A stretch of 7,034 nt of DNA. It comes from Bryobacterales bacterium. GTDB lineage: Bacteria; Cyanobacteriota; Vampirovibrionia; Obscuribacterales; Obscuribacteraceae. The translations under genes were made by a program, and so were the position numbers. The first letter of the stretch is position 1, and every line of letters begins with the position of its first letter. The stretch is from contig CAJCHQ010000908.1 of NCBI GenBank assembly GCA_903970295.1, positions 1 through 7,034 on the forward strand. Direction: 5' to 3'. Under the pieces are notes generated by a model. It saw nothing but the letters and a program-made list of their open reading frames with translations. It made no database searches and was not told the DNA's origin. This document shows, one piece after another, positions 1 through 6,963 of the stretch.

Positions 1-809
1 TTTTGGGCAACAGCTTGCCGTATGTAAGGGCAATTGTCGTTGGCAGCAACCGTCAATGTTTCCGGATCCATACCCGGATTACCCGCCGCAGCGGCACGCA
101 CACCAATTTCTCGATCGGCAGCGAGAGCCGCGAGCGCATCAGGTCGAGTTGCTAGATTAGCTGCCACAGCCCTCCTGGTATATTCATAGCTGTCTCCGGC
201 CAGCTTGCTTAGTGCTATCGAGGGGGTTTTCGGATTCGCCGCCACTGCTGCTCTCACCCAACTCACCTTGTCGCCGGCCAGAACAGCAAGATCCGCAGGC
301 AAGGTGGCAGTGTTTTCCGCCACCTGTGTCCTGACCTCTTTATCAATGTCTGAGGCAAGCAATGTCAACACGTACTGGGGAGCGACTGGATTGGCTGCCA
401 GAGCAAATCTAACGCGGGCATCACGATCAGTTGCGAGGTGGGTAAATACTGCCAGCGGCGTTGATTGATTGTGCGCCACTGATTTTCTAATCAGACCGTC
501 GACATCGCTAGCCAGCCGGTTGAGAGTTTCCGTGCGGGCATGAGGATTACTCGCCACAGCCTCCTTGATCGCTTGCGCCTCGTGCGATGCCAGCTGATCT
601 AGGCTAGCAAGAGAAGTGGTGGTAGCAATTGTTTTCAAAGCGGCTTCACTGACATGCCAATGAGAGTCGAGTGCGAGTTTGGCCAGCACCGCTGGTGGTA
701 TGGCTGGATGTTGCGCCGCAGATTGCCTGACAGAAGGGTTATCGTCGAGTGCGAGCTTGATGAGAGTCTGGGGCGGAGTATGCGGATTGCAAGCGACGGC
801 TTGCCTGAC
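1..809 (-). repeat. 78-bp coding repeat array (26-residue LRV-like units)
   Basis: Ten complete units and the beginning of an eleventh are visible, each 78 bp except the third, which is 84 bp. The conserved protein core is VRxAVAxNP and LxxLAxD. The DNA is clearly diverged between units, so this is an old protein repeat and not a recent tandem DNA expansion. The array continues past the left edge. Confidence 0.8.
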
Positions 810-1055
810 CAATTTGTCTGGGTTGGCGGAAAGTTTATCCAGAGCTTGTTCAGAGCTCAGCTGCGCAGCTAATTCGGCGATGTGCTGAGCCGGCATGATT
901 TCGACCGGAGTCGATGCACTATCGGCGGTTGCTACTCGTATATAGATATCAGGGGAGACTTGTTTTCTTGGTCCTAGATTCGAGGCAATCGAACATTGCT
1001 TGCTTTCGTCTGTAGATTCTAAATCTGGTTTTTTTAGTTGCTTGCCCTGAGCCAT
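1..1055 (-). CDS. Leucine-rich-variant (LRV/HEAT-like) repeat protein, 3' part cut by window edge
   Basis: An open frame runs from ATG at 1055 to the left edge without a stop, giving 351 visible residues. The start is supported by GGAGG seven bases upstream. Residues 1-60 are hydrophilic with no signal peptide or membrane segment, so a cytoplasmic protein is likely. From about residue 83 it consists of 26-residue repeats of the form VRxAVAxNPxTPxxxLxxLAxDxxxx, beginning near residues 83, 109, 135, 163, 189, 215, 241, 267, 293, 319 and 345. This resembles the LRV family of alpha-helical solenoids. The third repeat (135-162) is irregular: 28 residues and no NP. The N-terminal iron-sulphur cluster cysteines known from the Azotobacter LRV protein are absent; only Cys21 lies in that part. 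Such solenoids usually bind other proteins; the partner here is unknown. HEAT repeat is the alternative label. The family assignment is from the repeat pattern only. Confidence 0.85.
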   Translation of the reverse strand, partial: MAQGKQLKKPDLESTDESKQCSIASNLGPRKQVSPDIYIRVATADSASTPVEIMPAQHIAELAAQLSSEQALDKLSANPDKLVRQAVACNPHTPPQTLIKLALDDNPSVRQSAAQHPAIPPAVLAKLALDSHWHVSEAALKTIATTTSLASLDQLASHEAQAIKEAVASNPHARTETLNRLASDVDGLIRKSVAHNQSTPLAVFTHLATDRDARVRFALAANPVAPQYVLTLLASDIDKEVRTQVAENTATLPADLAVLAGDKVSWVRAAVAANPKTPSIALSKLAGDSYEYTRRAVAANLATRPDALAALAADREIGVRAAAAGNPGMDPETLTVAANDNCPYIRQAVAQ

Positions 1056-1100: not shown

Positions 1101-1132
1101 ATTGTGCATGCGGAGCATTACCGAAGGATTAC
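1101..1132 (-). promoter_or_regulatory. Candidate operator/promoter of the repeat-protein gene (GTAAT direct repeat)
   Basis: On the minus strand the site reads GTAAT-CCTTC-GGTAATG (1132-1116), followed after 9 nt by CACAAT (1106-1101), a possible -10 element. There is no good -35 hexamer; the direct repeat sits where one would be, as at an activator-dependent promoter. The start codon at 1055 would then have a leader of about 40 nt. The same arrangement recurs upstream of the next two minus-strand genes. The 130-bp gap holding it shows no clear terminator for mocR. Confidence 0.55.
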
Positions 1133-1185
1133 AAGGCTATCTGCGAGATCATTGTGTGAGTGGGATGCCCTCTAGCGGTAACAAT

Positions 1186-2655
1186 TTACGCCGGGCAGGT
1201 CGCTTCCAAAAATTCAGAGAACTCTATTATCTTCCGCGGTATAGCATCTTTTTCCAGCAAGCCAAAGGGAACCAAGAATTCGCGATCGACTGGATTTCGC
1301 ACATAATACGCTCTGGTCGAGACCATGGGCAGCCCAGCTCGAGCAGCACATGCAAGGATCTGGGCCTCATCAAGGTTTGATTCCAATCTAATTAGTTGAT
1401 GCAGTCCGGCAGTGTATTTCGGAATCTCCACTAAATCCAAGAATCGTTGCTTTAAGCTGAATATCAATGCCTGACGCCGACTCTCGTATACGGAACGGCT
1501 TCTGCTTATATGACATTCAAGGTGTCCTTGATTAATGAAATCGGTCAGAGCATATTGTTCAATCGGCGAAAAGTTCCTTTCAATCAAAAGTTTTGCCTTA
1601 GTGAACAAATCGATCATGTGCTCAGGTATTACAAGCACGCCGGTCGTGACAATCGGAAAAAGCAGCTTCCAAAAACTGTAGCTGTAAACGACCCGCTCGC
1701 TTTTATCAAGACCTTGCAATGCTGGCAAAGCCGGAGGACAGTAGTGGTAGTCGCTATCCCATGCATCTTCGAGGATAAAAGCATTTTTTCGTTCTGCCCA
1801 ACTGAGAAGCTGTTTCCTTCTTTCCATCGAAAGGATGGCACCAGTAGGGTCATGATGCGACAAAGAAACACAAACTAATTTGCAGGGGCCTTCAATCTTC
1901 TCCAACTCAGAAACCTTCATTCCATCGTCATCCACGTCAATGGCCTCGATACGCGCGTGCCTCGACTCGAGATTATTGCGCGAGCCTGCATAGCCTGGGT
2001 TTTCCACAACTACCAGATCGCCTTCATCGACCAACAGAGTCGATACGTAATGCATAGCCGTCTGCGAACCAGAAAATACAATTACTTGATCTGCACTGCA
2101 GTTGACAGCTTTAGATCTGCGCAAATAAGACGCCAGGGACTCACGCAAAGGTCGGTACCCAAACACCTCATGATCAGCTGCTTTTCGCGGTGTTTGCAGG
2201 GTACGGCAATGTCGGCTGAACAATGCGCGCCACTGCCTTTGGGGCAGAAGATCCGCGGGCGAGCAACCAAAATTCAGCTCCGGCATGTCGCCTGATGTGC
2301 CTGGCGCCAGCTCTACATTCATAATGGCGCGGCTCAAGTTTGACACTTTCAACTCGGGAGTGTCGGGTCTTGAACTTATAAGACGACCACCAGCTACCGT
2401 CGCAAGCTCGAGATTGCGTCTCACGTAAGTACCCGAACCTACCTGTGTCTCCAGGATGCCCTCTCCATGGAGTTGCTTATATGCCTTCACGACCGTCGAC
2501 CTTGATAGTGCTAATGACTCTGCTAATTCTTTCGCAGAGGGTAAATGTTGTCCGGGGCGGAGTCGGCCGTTGAGTACTGATTCGCGAAGCTCGGCTGTCA
2601 GTTGTCGTGACAACGGTAAATTTGAATTTGGGGCCAATACAATTGGAAAATCCAT
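1186..2655 (-). CDS. MocR/GabR-type regulator: GntR winged helix fused to PLP aminotransferase-like domain
   Basis: The protein has 489 residues from ATG at 2655, which has AAAGG nine bases upstream; an in-frame TTG at 2664 directly abuts that AAAGG and is rejected. Numbers below count from the TTG; subtract 3 for the ATG. Residues about 13-83 form a GntR DNA-binding domain (LPLSRQL, LPSAKELAESLALSRSTVVKAY, GSGTYV). Residues about 128-490 form a fold-type I aminotransferase-like domain with FSGSQTA (197-203), ENPGY (221-225), HDPTG (271-275), LED (298-300) and the cofactor lysine K333 in SFWKLLFP. Length is normal for MocR proteins, which sense PLP plus an amine or amino acid and regulate transcription. 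Two usual pocket positions look changed: W302 where the family has Tyr (EDDYDSE motif) and T340 where an Arg normally follows the lysine by seven. No target enzyme gene is adjacent, so the effector cannot be named; PdxR, GabR and TauR subtypes remain possible. Confidence 0.93.
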   Translation of the reverse strand: MDFPIVLAPNSNLPLSRQLTAELRESVLNGRLRPGQHLPSAKELAESLALSRSTVVKAYKQLHGEGILETQVGSGTYVRRNLELATVAGGRLISSRPDTPELKVSNLSRAIMNVELAPGTSGDMPELNFGCSPADLLPQRQWRALFSRHCRTLQTPRKAADHEVFGYRPLRESLASYLRRSKAVNCSADQVIVFSGSQTAMHYVSTLLVDEGDLVVVENPGYAGSRNNLESRHARIEAIDVDDDGMKVSELEKIEGPCKLVCVSLSHHDPTGAILSMERRKQLLSWAERKNAFILEDAWDSDYHYCPPALPALQGLDKSERVVYSYSFWKLLFPIVTTGVLVIPEHMIDLFTKAKLLIERNFSPIEQYALTDFINQGHLECHISRSRSVYESRRQALIFSLKQRFLDLVEIPKYTAGLHQLIRLESNLDEAQILACAARAGLPMVSTRAYYVRNPVDREFLVPFGLLEKDAIPRKIIEFSEFLEATCPA

Positions 2656-2720
2656 TTTTTTCAACCTTTGGAAGATGGGGTGAATGATAGCAAGCAGATA
2701 GAGCCCGAGAATTCGATTGA

Positions 2721-2741
2721 ACTGCGTTTAGAGAACGCAGT
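2721..2741 (-). other. Perfect 8-bp hairpin in the region upstream of mocR
   Basis: ACTGCGTT, a 5-base loop and AACGCAGT form a perfect inverted repeat. No T tract follows on either strand, so it is not a standard terminator. It would lie in the mocR leader if transcription starts near 2760, or it could be a protein-binding site. Confidence 0.4.
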
Positions 2742-2767
2742 CTGAGACCGCTAGTGCTATTCAACTC

Positions 2768-2799
2768 AATGTAGGTTGATTTCATTACCAAGACATTAC
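2768..2799 (-). promoter_or_regulatory. Candidate operator/promoter of mocR (GTAAT direct repeat)
   Basis: The minus strand reads GTAAT-GTCTT-GGTAATG (2799-2783), then after 9 nt TACATT (2773-2768), a plausible -10. It lies about 130 bp upstream of the mocR ATG, giving a leader of roughly 105 nt. Twelve bases of this site (CATTACCAAGAC on the plus strand, 2783-2794) recur exactly at 4274-4285. Autoregulation by the mocR product is an inference. Confidence 0.55.
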
Positions 2800-2801
2800 G
2801 T

Positions 2802-2832
2802 AAACAACTTCGAATGCAAATGTTGTTTGCAT
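2802..2832 (-). other. Two overlapping inverted repeats downstream of the 2871-3935 gene
   Basis: ATGCAAA-TGTTG-TTTGCAT (2814-2832) is a perfect 7-bp inverted repeat, and AAACAAC (2802-2808) pairs with GTTGTTT (2822-2828); the two structures exclude each other. On the minus strand they lie about 40 nt after the stop codon of the upstream gene but no T run follows, so a terminator role is weak. They also lie just upstream of the candidate mocR promoter. Confidence 0.35.
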
Positions 2833-2870
2833 GGCCGACGGTAAGTGTCAAACGCGACATGTCTGCGGCG

Positions 2871-3935
2871 CTAGATTCTTGCGCTATTTCCCTCGCCGCG
2901 AATAACGAGGCTCTGCTCGCTAAATTGTGAAAGCATATTCAAAGCTCTCGGTCGCACAAAGTGGTACGCGTCTGGAACATTAAGTCTGCCTGTCTTCCAT
3001 GTTTCCGCCGCCTGATTGAAAACGTTTTGGGGCGCCCGCGTAGCGTTGACAAATGTGCTGGCCGGTTTATTAGAGCGTAAGCTGCGTGGCTGTGCCGTTT
3101 GACGAAGCATCAGTCCGAGTGACTCGATACCACTCGCCTGGGCGCCGACAAAACTGTCTTTCACGGGCTTCAGTCCAGAAAGGCTAAACGTCAGATGGGC
3201 CGGCAAATCAGCCTGATTGTGACTGATCATGCTACCGAGAACTTTGGTGCCAGTATTGTCCTCGAGATGCTTGAGCAAGTCGCTCAAGCTACGCAATTTA
3301 GTTGTGTCAAAAAAAGACTGAATTCCCAGCAATTCGCCCTTCGCAAAAAAAGCCACGCACTCCGCTCCCTTGCTCTCGTCAAAAAGAGCAACAGCCCCGA
3401 GTGCAGAGGCCTTGTCGAAGCGATTGACCAGAGAGTAAAGGCTTGGCGCTTGAGTGCTGTCAACGTAATCAATATCAATCTGATTATGGAACATTGACCC
3501 CGCCGCTAGTGCTACCTCTTCCGACAACAGATAACCATTAGATAAGCTTTGATTGCTGCTCAAATCAAGCAATAGTCTGTCATAGGCAGCCTTGCCAAAA
3601 AGTTGCTCCGGGCAAACTTTGCTGCCATAAACGCAAGCGAGAACGCGTCCTCGCAAAATCAACAGCCCCGCTCTCGACTGGCTCTGGGACGAATCAATCT
3701 TCACGCAGCAAGTCAAACGCTGGACTTCGATATCGAGTAATTGCTGCAGTGTGCTCATCTTTCCTGGAGACGGTAACATCTCTCCCGCAAAGCATTCGCT
3801 GGGCAACAGAGAAGTTGTACGACGATTGCGCCCATCATATTTGCGACCGACCACAAAGCTGTTCTCCTGTGCGCTGACTAGATCGCTAGCACGGTCATCC
3901 TGCTGAACATAGAAATCATAATTGTGAACATACAT
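2871..3935 (-). CDS. Unrecognised protein with two tandem DUF4388/PatA-like segments
   Basis: The protein has 354 residues from ATG at 3935, preceded by AGGAG ten bases upstream. An in-frame GTG at 3968 would add 11 residues and also has a GGAG, but it lies in the loop of a small hairpin, so the ATG is preferred. There is no signal peptide or membrane segment. Residues 61-106 (STLQQLLDI ... GLLILRGRVLACVYGSK) resemble DUF4388/PatA N-terminal domains, in which a strand of the type gxLyfxxGrixxA is followed by GxxAxxxLL, here GKAAYDRLL (114-122). Residues 165-210 (SLYSLVNRF ... VAFFAKGELLGIQSFF) align to 61-106 without gaps over 36 positions up to a shared glycine (G96 and G200), which suggests an internal duplication. 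Residues about 275-354 look less ordered. DUF4388 proteins often act in signalling or gliding systems; no such role can be assigned here. Confidence 0.72.
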   Translation of the reverse strand: MYVHNYDFYVQQDDRASDLVSAQENSFVVGRKYDGRNRRTTSLLPSECFAGEMLPSPGKMSTLQQLLDIEVQRLTCCVKIDSSQSQSRAGLLILRGRVLACVYGSKVCPEQLFGKAAYDRLLLDLSSNQSLSNGYLLSEEVALAAGSMFHNQIDIDYVDSTQAPSLYSLVNRFDKASALGAVALFDESKGAECVAFFAKGELLGIQSFFDTTKLRSLSDLLKHLEDNTGTKVLGSMISHNQADLPAHLTFSLSGLKPVKDSFVGAQASGIESLGLMLRQTAQPRSLRSNKPASTFVNATRAPQNVFNQAAETWKTGRLNVPDAYHFVRPRALNMLSQFSEQSLVIRGEGNSARI

Positions 3936-3958
3936 GTTAATTGCGCTCCTGTACTTGG

Positions 3959-4018
3959 TCGCGTTCACGCGATACTTCTCCGCATAGCGACGCTGGTGAG
4001 ACCTCAGAACAAGAGGTC
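3959..4018 (-). other. Two small hairpins in the leader of the 2871-3935 gene
   Basis: TCGCG-TTCA-CGCGA (3959-3972) and GACCTC-AGAACAA-GAGGTC (4000-4018) are perfect inverted repeats of 5 and 6 bp. The first encloses the alternative GTG start at 3968. Both would be transcribed if the promoter at 4049-4077 is used. They could be chance; no ligand-binding class of riboswitch is recognised. Confidence 0.35.
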
Positions 4019-4048
4019 ATCCCAGGAAAATCATCTCCGGTGCTAAAA

Positions 4049-4077
4049 AAAATAGACTTAGTAATTCGATTAGTCAA
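4049..4077 (-). promoter_or_regulatory. Candidate sigma-70 promoter of the 2871-3935 gene
   Basis: The minus strand has TTGACT (4077-4072), a 17-bp spacer and TATTTT (4054-4049), matching the -35 in five of six and the -10 in four of six positions. Transcription would start near 4042, giving a leader of about 105 nt to the ATG at 3935. Confidence 0.5.
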
Positions 4078-4178
4078 ACAGCCGCTTGTTGGAATAGCGG
4101 CATTGAAAATGAGCTTCTCAAATAAAGCTGAAAGGAAGTCTCGTTATCTCCTCCAAAAAAAACATTAGGTAGAACTGA

Positions 4179-4215
4179 CATTACCGTAGCGGTTTAACAT
4201 TACCAATTGATTACC
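4179..4215 (-). promoter_or_regulatory. Third GTAAT direct-repeat site plus an extra GGTAATG
   Basis: The minus strand reads GTAAT-CAATT-GGTAATG (4214-4198), followed after 9 nt by TACGGT (4188-4183), a poor -10 match. A further single GGTAATG occupies 4185-4179 and another 4280-4274. The site lies about 265 bp upstream of the start at 3935. The stretch 4078-4398 otherwise holds no gene I can support; it contains a run of eight A at 4155-4162 and a GCCGCT/AGCGGC hairpin near 4081-4102. Confidence 0.5.
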
Positions 4216-4398
4216 GCATTTTGTGAAACGCCCCTTTTTGTCATTTTGCCACCAACTGAGTTTGTCTTACAGACATTACCAAGACCTTCCCGAGCATTGC
4301 GTGCGGTTGTGGCTATGGGTATGAGCCGCAAACTCAGCGCAGAGTAGCAGAAGTGGAGAATACCGAAAATGTTTTTAAACAGCAAAAATACAACCAAC

Positions 4399-5455: not shown

Positions 5456-6040
5456 ATGAATTCCGAGAAAAAGTCCCTCGTTGCCACTTATAAACAAGCC
5501 TGGGAAAAAACTCGAAAACCGCTTTTATCGGTCTTCATTGCTTTCATTGTCTATGGTTTTTGGTTGATGGCCTGGCCGACGAACCCCTATTTCGACCCTA
5601 AAGTTCAATTCTTGAAACCGGTCGCTGAGCCATTTCGTTTTTTTGGCATCTATAGAGAATTCAAGCTCTATGCGCCCACGCCTCCGCTCAAGAACTTTTC
5701 TATTTTCTTCCGCATCAGTTTTGATGATGGGACTGGAATTGACTGGGTCTTTCCGCGTCAGAAATTAACACCTTGGGATTCACCGCACTCATTCGATCGC
5801 TACATTCAACAATATTTTTTTTGGGAGAAGGTACCGATTTACCATCAAATCAGAACTGCTCTTGCTCGATACGTTGCCAGACAAAACAATTCTCAAAACA
5901 AACACCCAATACGCGTTGAATTCATTAGCAGAGTGAGCTTGATTCCACTGCCTGTGGCAGGAACAGGCAAGCCCTCGGAGCAGCTACCCAAAGACCATCA
6001 GTTCTTCTCATATGATGTCGAACCCGGTGACTTGCTTTGA
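5456..6040 (+). CDS. Membrane-anchored DUF5819-like partner of the HTTM protein
   Basis: The protein has 194 residues. A short basic N-terminus is followed by one membrane helix (about residues 22-40, LLSVFIAFIVYGFWLMAW); the remainder is soluble and, by the positive-inside rule with N-terminal Lys/Arg, should face outward. It carries FRFFGIYREFKLYAPTPP (60-77) and FRISFDDGTGIDWVFP (85-100), which match the W/F-x-LFAPxP and VRxxxxDGxxTxW pattern that I associate with DUF5819 proteins, a family often encoded beside HTTM genes. Here the stop overlaps the start of the HTTM gene, so the two are translated together. The sequence before ATG 5456 is AT-rich with no ribosome site. Biochemical role unknown; working together with the HTTM protein is inferred from context. 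Confidence 0.82.
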   Translation: MNSEKKSLVATYKQAWEKTRKPLLSVFIAFIVYGFWLMAWPTNPYFDPKVQFLKPVAEPFRFFGIYREFKLYAPTPPLKNFSIFFRISFDDGTGIDWVFPRQKLTPWDSPHSFDRYIQQYFFWEKVPIYHQIRTALARYVARQNNSQNKHPIRVEFISRVSLIPLPVAGTGKPSEQLPKDHQFFSYDVEPGDLL

Positions 6041-6963
6041 TCTTTGCGCGCCTTCTGAAAACCTTGGACTCATTTTGGTTTGCTCCAGTTTCACCCAGCC
6101 CGGTTTGTGCTCTGCGCATTCTTTATGGCATTTTGTCGTTCATTAATGGGTTACTTTATGCTCCGGATTTCCTGACTTGGTTTGGACCCCGCGGTGTACT
6201 GCCGATTGAAACTGTCGGGTTGCTCGGCCCCCGGCCAAGTTTAATGCTGTATTTCAATCTTACAGACGATCAAACGCTGATTTTTTTATGGCTTTTCCTG
6301 GCCTTCTCAATCCTGGTCATTGTCGGCTTCTGGACACGAGTAAGCATATTTCTGCTCTGGATTTTGACTTTGTCAATCAATTTCCGCAACCCTTTTATGT
6401 TTCATCAAGTAGACAGCGTGCTGCGGATCGTAGGTTTTGGTCTTTTACTCTCACCGGCTGGAGCCATGTATTCAATTGATCGTTGGTTGCGTCAGCGAAG
6501 AGGTAACTGCGCGGCACCTCTACTGTATGCCCCGTGGGCTCAGCGGCTGATTCAAATTCAAGTGTCCTGCATTTATTGGAAAGCCTTCTGGGCCAAGCTC
6601 TTGGGCGAGCCATGGCGTCAGGGCACGGCAGTTTACTTCGCCGTTCACTCGACGACACGGCATCAAATTCCTGGCTTTTTGGACAACATGCTTTTCTACA
6701 AGATCGCCACTTATTACACTCTAATTGTCGAAAGTTGCATGTGGAGCCTGGTCTGGATACAACCGCTGACTAAATGGATTCTCCTGTCTGCGACGATTCT
6801 TCATGCTGGCATCGATTGGTGCATCAATCTTGATTTACTCGAATGGGGAGTGATCAGCACCTACGTTGTATTCTTGAAGCCCTCCGACATCGAGAATTTC
6901 ATGAACTTTATCGGCAAAAAATTGGCAATCTTAATCGCCCACCTCAGGCGCCACCATAACTAG
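6037..6963 (+). CDS. HTTM-domain (vitamin K-dependent gamma-carboxylase-like) membrane protein
   Basis: The protein has 308 residues and several membrane helices, and matches the HTTM family along its length: ALRILYGILSFINGLLY (25-41), GPRGVLP (50-56), VGFWTRVSIFLLWILTLSINFRNP (96-119), VDSVLRIVGFGLLLSPAG (125-142), SIDRW (146-150), RLIQIQVSCIYWKAFWAKLLGEPWRQGTAVYF (170-201), YYTLIVES (226-233) and LHAGID (255-260). K187 in AKLLG sits where the catalytic lysine of gamma-carboxylase occurs (KKL), though bacterial HTTM proteins have no proven carboxylase activity in general. The start is TTG at 6037, overlapping the previous stop as TTGA, with GGTGA five bases upstream; no ATG is available before residue 70. 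Length is on the short side but contains all core helices. No thioredoxin-like DCC gene, a frequent companion, is in view. Confidence 0.92.
   Translation: MIFARLLKTLDSFWFAPVSPSPVCALRILYGILSFINGLLYAPDFLTWFGPRGVLPIETVGLLGPRPSLMLYFNLTDDQTLIFLWLFLAFSILVIVGFWTRVSIFLLWILTLSINFRNPFMFHQVDSVLRIVGFGLLLSPAGAMYSIDRWLRQRRGNCAAPLLYAPWAQRLIQIQVSCIYWKAFWAKLLGEPWRQGTAVYFAVHSTTRHQIPGFLDNMLFYKIATYYTLIVESCMWSLVWIQPLTKWILLSATILHAGIDWCINLDLLEWGVISTYVVFLKPSDIENFMNFIGKKLAILIAHLRRHHN

Follow-up and report, generated by a model that had tools for sequence, protein, structure and literature searches.

Operator sites in the window

The stretch analysed here, positions 1 to 7,034 of contig CAJCHQ010000908.1 (7,034 nucleotides; hereafter, the window), carries three minus-strand genes, which encode an LRV/HEAT-type repeat protein, a MocR-type regulator, and a protein with a weak resemblance to DUF4388 (hereafter, the third gene). 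Each is preceded by a short direct repeat that we describe as an operator (Table 1). A preliminary description of the sequence had listed three copies of GTAAT-N5-GGTAATG on the minus strand, and all three were recovered exactly, as were the −10-like hexamers CACAAT, TACATT, and TACGGT located 9 bp downstream of them, which fit YANNNT. The count of three holds for exact copies; a fourth, degenerate copy (site D), which begins 76 bp upstream of site C, had been missed. The activator-like layout recognized in that description, in which a direct repeat with an 11-bp period occupies the −35 position, also stood, and the repeat behaves as an operator.

The matches are unlikely to have arisen by chance, as had been argued from base counting. 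Allowing up to two mismatches, the window contained four matches, while 200 shuffled sequences gave a mean of 0.38 and a maximum of 2, with none reaching 4. The heptad GGTAATG alone occurred five times against an expectation of 0.45, and all five copies were on the minus strand. A matrix built from 16 of 29 sites in related genomes (identical and weaker sites omitted, and none taken from the window) placed the four window sites at ranks 1–4, with the fifth place scoring 4.7 bits. In 100 dinucleotide-shuffled windows, the best scores averaged 4.9 bits and the largest was 20.9 bits; thus, 1 of the 100 shuffles exceeded site A, and site D scored just above that value. The repeat and TANNNT positions of this matrix are partly circular, because its training sites were found with patterns that required both.

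Whether every site lies between genes, as first described, depends on start codons, which we assigned by reading the sequence (ATG 1055 for the LRV gene, ATG 2655 or TTG 2664 for mocR, and ATG 3935 for the third gene). The longest LRV reading frame starts inside site A (ATG 1118); the gene likely starts at ATG 1055, behind GGAGG, and site A would then be intergenic. The leader that follows site C is approximately 240 nt long, and its folding was no better than that of shuffled sequences (z −0.62).

Table 1. Genes and operator sites of the window
Feature	Position	Strand	Remarks
LRV/HEAT-type repeat protein	3..1055	−	Pfam LRV, E 8e-28; continues beyond the window edge; site A lies upstream
Promoter site A	1101..1132	−	GTAATCCTTCGGTAATG (1132-1116), N9, −10-like CACAAT (1106-1101); upstream of LRV-repeat gene; exact match, 16.0 bits
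MocR-type regulator	1186..2664	−	GntR winged helix and aminotransferase fold; downstream of site B
Promoter site B	2768..2799	−	GTAATGTCTTGGTAATG (2799-2783), N9, −10 TACATT (2773-2768); upstream of mocR/pdxR-like gene; exact match, 29.0 bits
Third gene, weak DUF4388 resemblance	2871..3935	−	Downstream of sites C and D
Lone half-site GGTAATG	4179..4185	−	Overlaps the −10-like hexamer of site C; second half-site absent at 11 bp
Promoter site C	4183..4214	−	GTAATCAATTGGTAATG (4214-4198), N9, −10-like TACGGT (4188-4183); upstream of DUF4388-like gene; exact match, 23.7 bits
Promoter site D	4259..4290	−	GGAAGGTCTTGGTAATG-N9-CAAACT; 2 mismatches; 21.0 bits

Distribution of the promoter in related genomes

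Related sequences were searched in 53 genomes belonging to the order of genome G010, including those of the Candidatus Obscuribacter loci; we call this order Obscuribacterales by inference and assume that the window belongs to it. The full promoter was defined as the 11-bp direct repeat followed by N9 and TANNNT, and the reversed pattern served as the control. In 29 related genomes, the plain pattern, searched without the −10 requirement, gave 13 matches versus 3 for the control. Four of these (two each in G010 and G023) all had TANNNT at +9 and were located between genes, upstream of a gene on the same strand. None of the other nine had TANNNT at +9, and at least one of them (L043) was also located between reading frames.

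The exact full promoter was found nine times, in 4 of the 53 genomes (G010, G023, G047, and G048), and the control was not found at all. With up to two mismatches, these four genomes contained 29 sites versus 3 for the control, many of the sites being orthologous copies among G023, G047, and G048. The preliminary description had proposed asking whether matches in relatives fall upstream of genes, and they do: the next gene model was on the same strand for 27 of the 29 sites. For two of the 27, the next gene model was approximately 0.9 and 1.2 kb away, because a small gene or a putative non-coding transcript intervenes. The two exceptions were a weak match (L056) and a site next to a small GTG-started gene missed by the gene model (L062). 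Under this crude model, 22 sites fell in no reading frame and 7 overlapped reading frames of 74–152 aa.

Across the whole order, a slightly tighter pattern with up to two mismatches matched in 13 of the 53 genomes, namely the four promoter genomes, G006 (four matches, three of them on one contig), and eight others with nine matches together; outside those five genomes, the control gave 14 matches. In a sample of 386 genomes from the phylum, the exact promoter was matched twice in the 385 genomes other than G010, and the control twice, which is chance level. The searches thus establish the spacing to the −10 element, the placement of the sites, and their confinement to a few genomes; the operator represents a promoter family limited to one lineage, with the geometry of PhoB sites.

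A second matrix, in which the three exact window sites were included, was applied to 0.94 Mb of sequence made up of 30 loci with members of the third protein's family, 30 loci with mocR, and further loci. Only ten loci reached 18 bits, including a weaker second site in L178, and all of them had been chosen around known operators or linked regulators. The 30 loci with the third protein's family yielded no site of at least 18 bits, and neither did the 30 mocR loci, of which 27 include at least 1.4 kb of upstream sequence and three (L080 of G010, L084, and L101) include less than 80 bp. Regulon membership is therefore not conserved gene by gene.

A probable regulator of the operator

Our analysis points to a two-component response regulator encoded near the sites. 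G048, G047, and G023 share one syntenic locus (L102, L103, and L104, respectively) in which a gene for an OmpR-type response regulator accompanies several copies of the operator. This gene is transcribed away from an operator copy located 190–410 bp off; in G048 and G023, this locus also contains a histidine kinase gene adjoining an operator copy. A different locus of G010 (L177) consists of a kinase gene, an operator a few bases past the kinase stop codon, two small genes, and a response regulator gene, which lies approximately 1.3 kb downstream of the site and whose product is 62% identical. In G048, G023, and G010, the locus that encodes the regulator therefore also has a HisKA-type histidine kinase gene next to one of its operator copies. 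The kinases near sites are of one broad kind, with no clear one-to-one orthologues beyond L102 and L104.

The distribution of this regulator agrees with that of the promoter. When the 53 genomes were searched with the linked regulator, the proteins of G048, G023, and G047 scored 505–516 bits (98–100% identity), followed by a second tier at 315–340 bits, made up of paralogues in G023 and G047 (67 and 62% identity) and the G010 protein (62%). Below this gap, no match exceeded 277 bits or 58% identity. In a tree of the 86 regulators extracted from the loci examined, six proteins, from the four promoter genomes only, formed one clade with an SH-aLRT support of 99 and a long stem. The recognition-helix letters VRVC were found, among the loci then examined, only in operator-linked regulators, and two paralogues had VRAC. 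The linked regulators matched only Response_reg and Trans_reg_C at E <= 0.01.

These results suggest that an OmpR/PhoB-type response regulator, likely of the VRVC clade, uses the repeats as class-II activator promoters and would switch on the three genes of the window. We regard this as the likely explanation, and the regulator is probably this specific clade. In such a promoter, two GGTAATG heptads, 4 bp apart and hence with an 11-bp period, would replace the −35 element at a fixed distance of 9 bp upstream of a sigma70-type −10 element (TANNNT). By analogy with PhoB, two subunits of the regulator (VRVC, or VRAC in the two paralogues) would occupy one face of the helix in a head-to-tail arrangement, recruiting RNA polymerase through the sigma factor. 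In the window, whose organism would be expected to possess a regulator of this clade, expression of the LRV protein, the mocR gene, and the DUF4388-like gene would be activated in this manner.

The geometry has precedents in other bacteria. Pho boxes consist of two 11-nt direct units of 7+4 nt, and PhoB contacts sigma70, as described in PMC4415409; likewise, the present operator has two 11-nt direct units with seven conserved and four variable positions, and a Trans_reg_C response regulator is encoded near the sites. In contrast, the heptad is GGTAATG here and CTGTCAT in the Pho box, two linked regulators scored 175.8 and 178.0 bits on TIGR02154, below its cut-off of 296.2, and no phosphate gene was recognized among 18 scanned downstream proteins. 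The cyanobacterial regulators RpaB and RppA are also OmpR-type proteins of the phylum, and RpaB binds a direct repeat, HLR1. However, HLR1 has a different motif, (G/T)TTACA(T/A)(T/A) repeated with 2 nt between the copies, and a 10-bp period, according to PMC9241938, and the L102 regulator scored 137.5 bits for RpaB (cut-off, 330) and 179 bits for RppA (cut-off, 250).

Several observations weigh against our assignment of the regulator. G047 has no kinase gene beside its sites, and there is no room for one there. The tree samples only 86 regulators, most of which were selected for their resemblance to the query. Around the paralogues in G023:C137 and G047:C20, there is no site for approximately 6.5 kb. 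Since the syntenic locus is common to G023, G047, and G048, as are many orthologous sites, these genomes and G010 amount to about two independent lineages. In addition, OmpR-type (Trans_reg_C) domains number 14–70 per genome in the nine genomes counted, so that the nearness of a regulator to a site means little in large genomes. By rough estimates, such nearness would arise by chance with a probability of approximately 3% in G010 (14 regulators, 1.5 kb, 3 good sites, and 3.7 Mb) and approximately 10% in G048 (58 regulators, 0.5 kb, 11 sites, and 6.3 Mb). Neither figure settles the matter, and our assignment depends mainly on the shared clade and the distribution. Furthermore, four sites are present in G006 (L119), yet the 33 loci examined of its 52 listed matches did not include a VRVC regulator; the most similar DNA-binding piece of this genome had the helix letters IRVH.

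The case of G006 and the many candidate binders per genome would also suit another OmpR-fold regulator, either a different response regulator or a SARP-like protein, with the VRVC clade located near the sites by chance. SARPs use the same geometry as PhoB: their sites (ActII-ORF4, DnrI, and AfsR) consist of direct repeats of a heptamer, with a classical period of 11 bp, that overlap the −35 element, as stated in PMC10972967, and BTAD matches occurred in 52 of the 53 genomes, although all those listed except two were below 36 bits. We rejected a SARP as the binder, given that the BTAD matches are mostly weak and that the linked regulators, unlike SARPs, have a receiver domain and no BTAD match. 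Because the VRVC clade coincides with the four genomes that have the exact promoter and lies near sites in two separate contexts, we consider a different OmpR-fold binder unlikely.

The preliminary description had proposed a MocR regulon, in which the MocR/PdxR-type protein whose gene lies between the sites would bind the repeats to control its own gene and the neighbouring ones. One operator copy does lie upstream of mocR in the window, direct repeats are frequent targets of MocR proteins and self-regulation is common among transcription factors (PMC5320631), and one mocR gene of G047 is located approximately 2 kb from an operator site. However, neither the distribution nor the repeat spacing supports this proposal. 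Relatives of mocR occur in 50 of the 53 genomes, with up to 14 per genome, while exact promoters occur in 4, so the operator does not follow mocR orthologues; the closest relatives of the window MocR are found in G016, G021, G036, and G039, all of which lack the exact promoter. In the four operator genomes, no mocR was found as the next gene after any of the 29 sites, and the mocR loci contained no site of at least 18 bits, as described above. The same comparative study places the direct repeats of characterized MocR factors, including GabR- and PdxR-type operators, two or three helical turns apart, not one. Binding by the MocR protein therefore appears quite improbable; an OmpR/PhoB-class regulator fits better in spacing, neighbourhood, and distribution, and MocR is more likely a target than the binder.

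The fixed −10 spacing would also suit a family of promoters read by an alternative sigma factor, of which the repeat would be a part, and a dispersed repeat element was likewise considered. A pair of equal heptads spaced by one helical turn, followed by an ordinary −10 element, suits an activator better than a sigma-factor promoter; the sites point at genes, and their flanks differ except in orthologous copies, unlike those of a mobile repeat. We regard both possibilities as very remote, and activation by the VRVC-clade response regulator remains our preferred explanation.

Neighbouring genes, regulon, and significance

The MocR protein of the window passes the NCBIfam cut-off for PdxR (PLP_TF_PdxR, 355 bits; cut-off, 320). 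A plasmid search with it returned 1392 records, all below 60% identity, which were not used as evidence, and searches among viruses and phages found no relative. The third protein had 22 database matches, including itself. Its earlier description as DUF4388-like is weakly supported: 3 of the 22 family members touch DUF4388 (best E 0.033), while the window protein itself has no Pfam match; DUF2226 is likewise touched by 3 of the 22 (best E 0.0034). The family occupies 30 loci in genome contigs, 24 of which are labelled Cyanobacteria, Melainabacteria, or Obscuribacter(ales), and the remaining six Actinobacteria (L010 of genome G010), Proteobacteria, Chloroflexi, or plain bacterium. Elsewhere in the window, positions 5456-6963 encode an HTTM/SdpB-like membrane protein (weak matches), which a short partner reading frame overlaps by 4 bp. 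A similar-looking pair lies near the operator in G010:C517 (L177), with no detected sequence similarity to the window pair. Synteny between the two loci was not counted, since tblastn gave no match at 1e-3 and G010 has eight HTTM matches.

The downstream genes of the related genomes encode mostly nameless proteins. Among the 18 scanned proteins, some of which were cut short by the end of a locus and some of which were orthologous, 11 had no Pfam match at E 0.01 and four reached a cut-off: LysM proteins (L060 and L064), a glucosaminidase (L054), and a GHMP kinase (L049), which by our reading would be homoserine-kinase-like. In G006:C403 (L119), four operator copies on one strand lie upstream of LysM, FHA, and unknown genes.

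At the syntenic locus of the linked regulators, sites precede tandem paralogues of approximately 78 aa (MYNPSNVHAFFEKL...; L102:7861-9000, L103:7026-8000, and L104:13523 on the minus strand). A conserved box, GGCAATGGTGAAATTCCCAT, ends approximately 23 bp upstream of the operator before these paralogues and may bind a second factor. Directly after another operator copy, a conserved stretch of approximately 105 nt was found (L102:7608-7725, L103:6662-6776, and L104 at approximately 13792-13941 on the minus strand), which is present in 3 of the 53 genomes with 90–100% identity and adjoins the histidine kinase gene in two of the three. It ends in a strong hairpin and a T-run, and the folding of two copies gave z scores of −2.3 and −3.3. 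No Rfam match was found for this stretch, nor, at gathering thresholds, anywhere in the window, L102, L103, or L104. These features suggest a putative, unannotated small RNA under the same operator.

It is about evenly balanced, in our judgement, whether the whole forms a two-component system peculiar to this lineage of Obscuribacterales, which would act through an operator of its own, GGTAATG-N4-GGTAATG-N9-TANNNT. Its regulon would comprise mostly nameless proteins, of which some carry LysM or glucosaminidase domains, together with the tandem 78-aa proteins and the putative small RNA. The window would then represent a third lineage, in which mocR has been captured and one regulator feeds another. 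The order is rich in both classes of regulator, with up to 14 MocR-type proteins per genome in the 53 genomes and 14–70 OmpR-type domains in the nine genomes counted.

To our knowledge, Obscuribacterales are uncultured. We know of no operator assigned in this order, and none was found in the literature searched, which covered papers naming the order in part. Our study offers an operator–regulator pair that is open to testing in a little-known, non-photosynthetic group of cyanobacteria, in which one switch would tie together a regulon of mostly nameless proteins and a putative small RNA under the same control.

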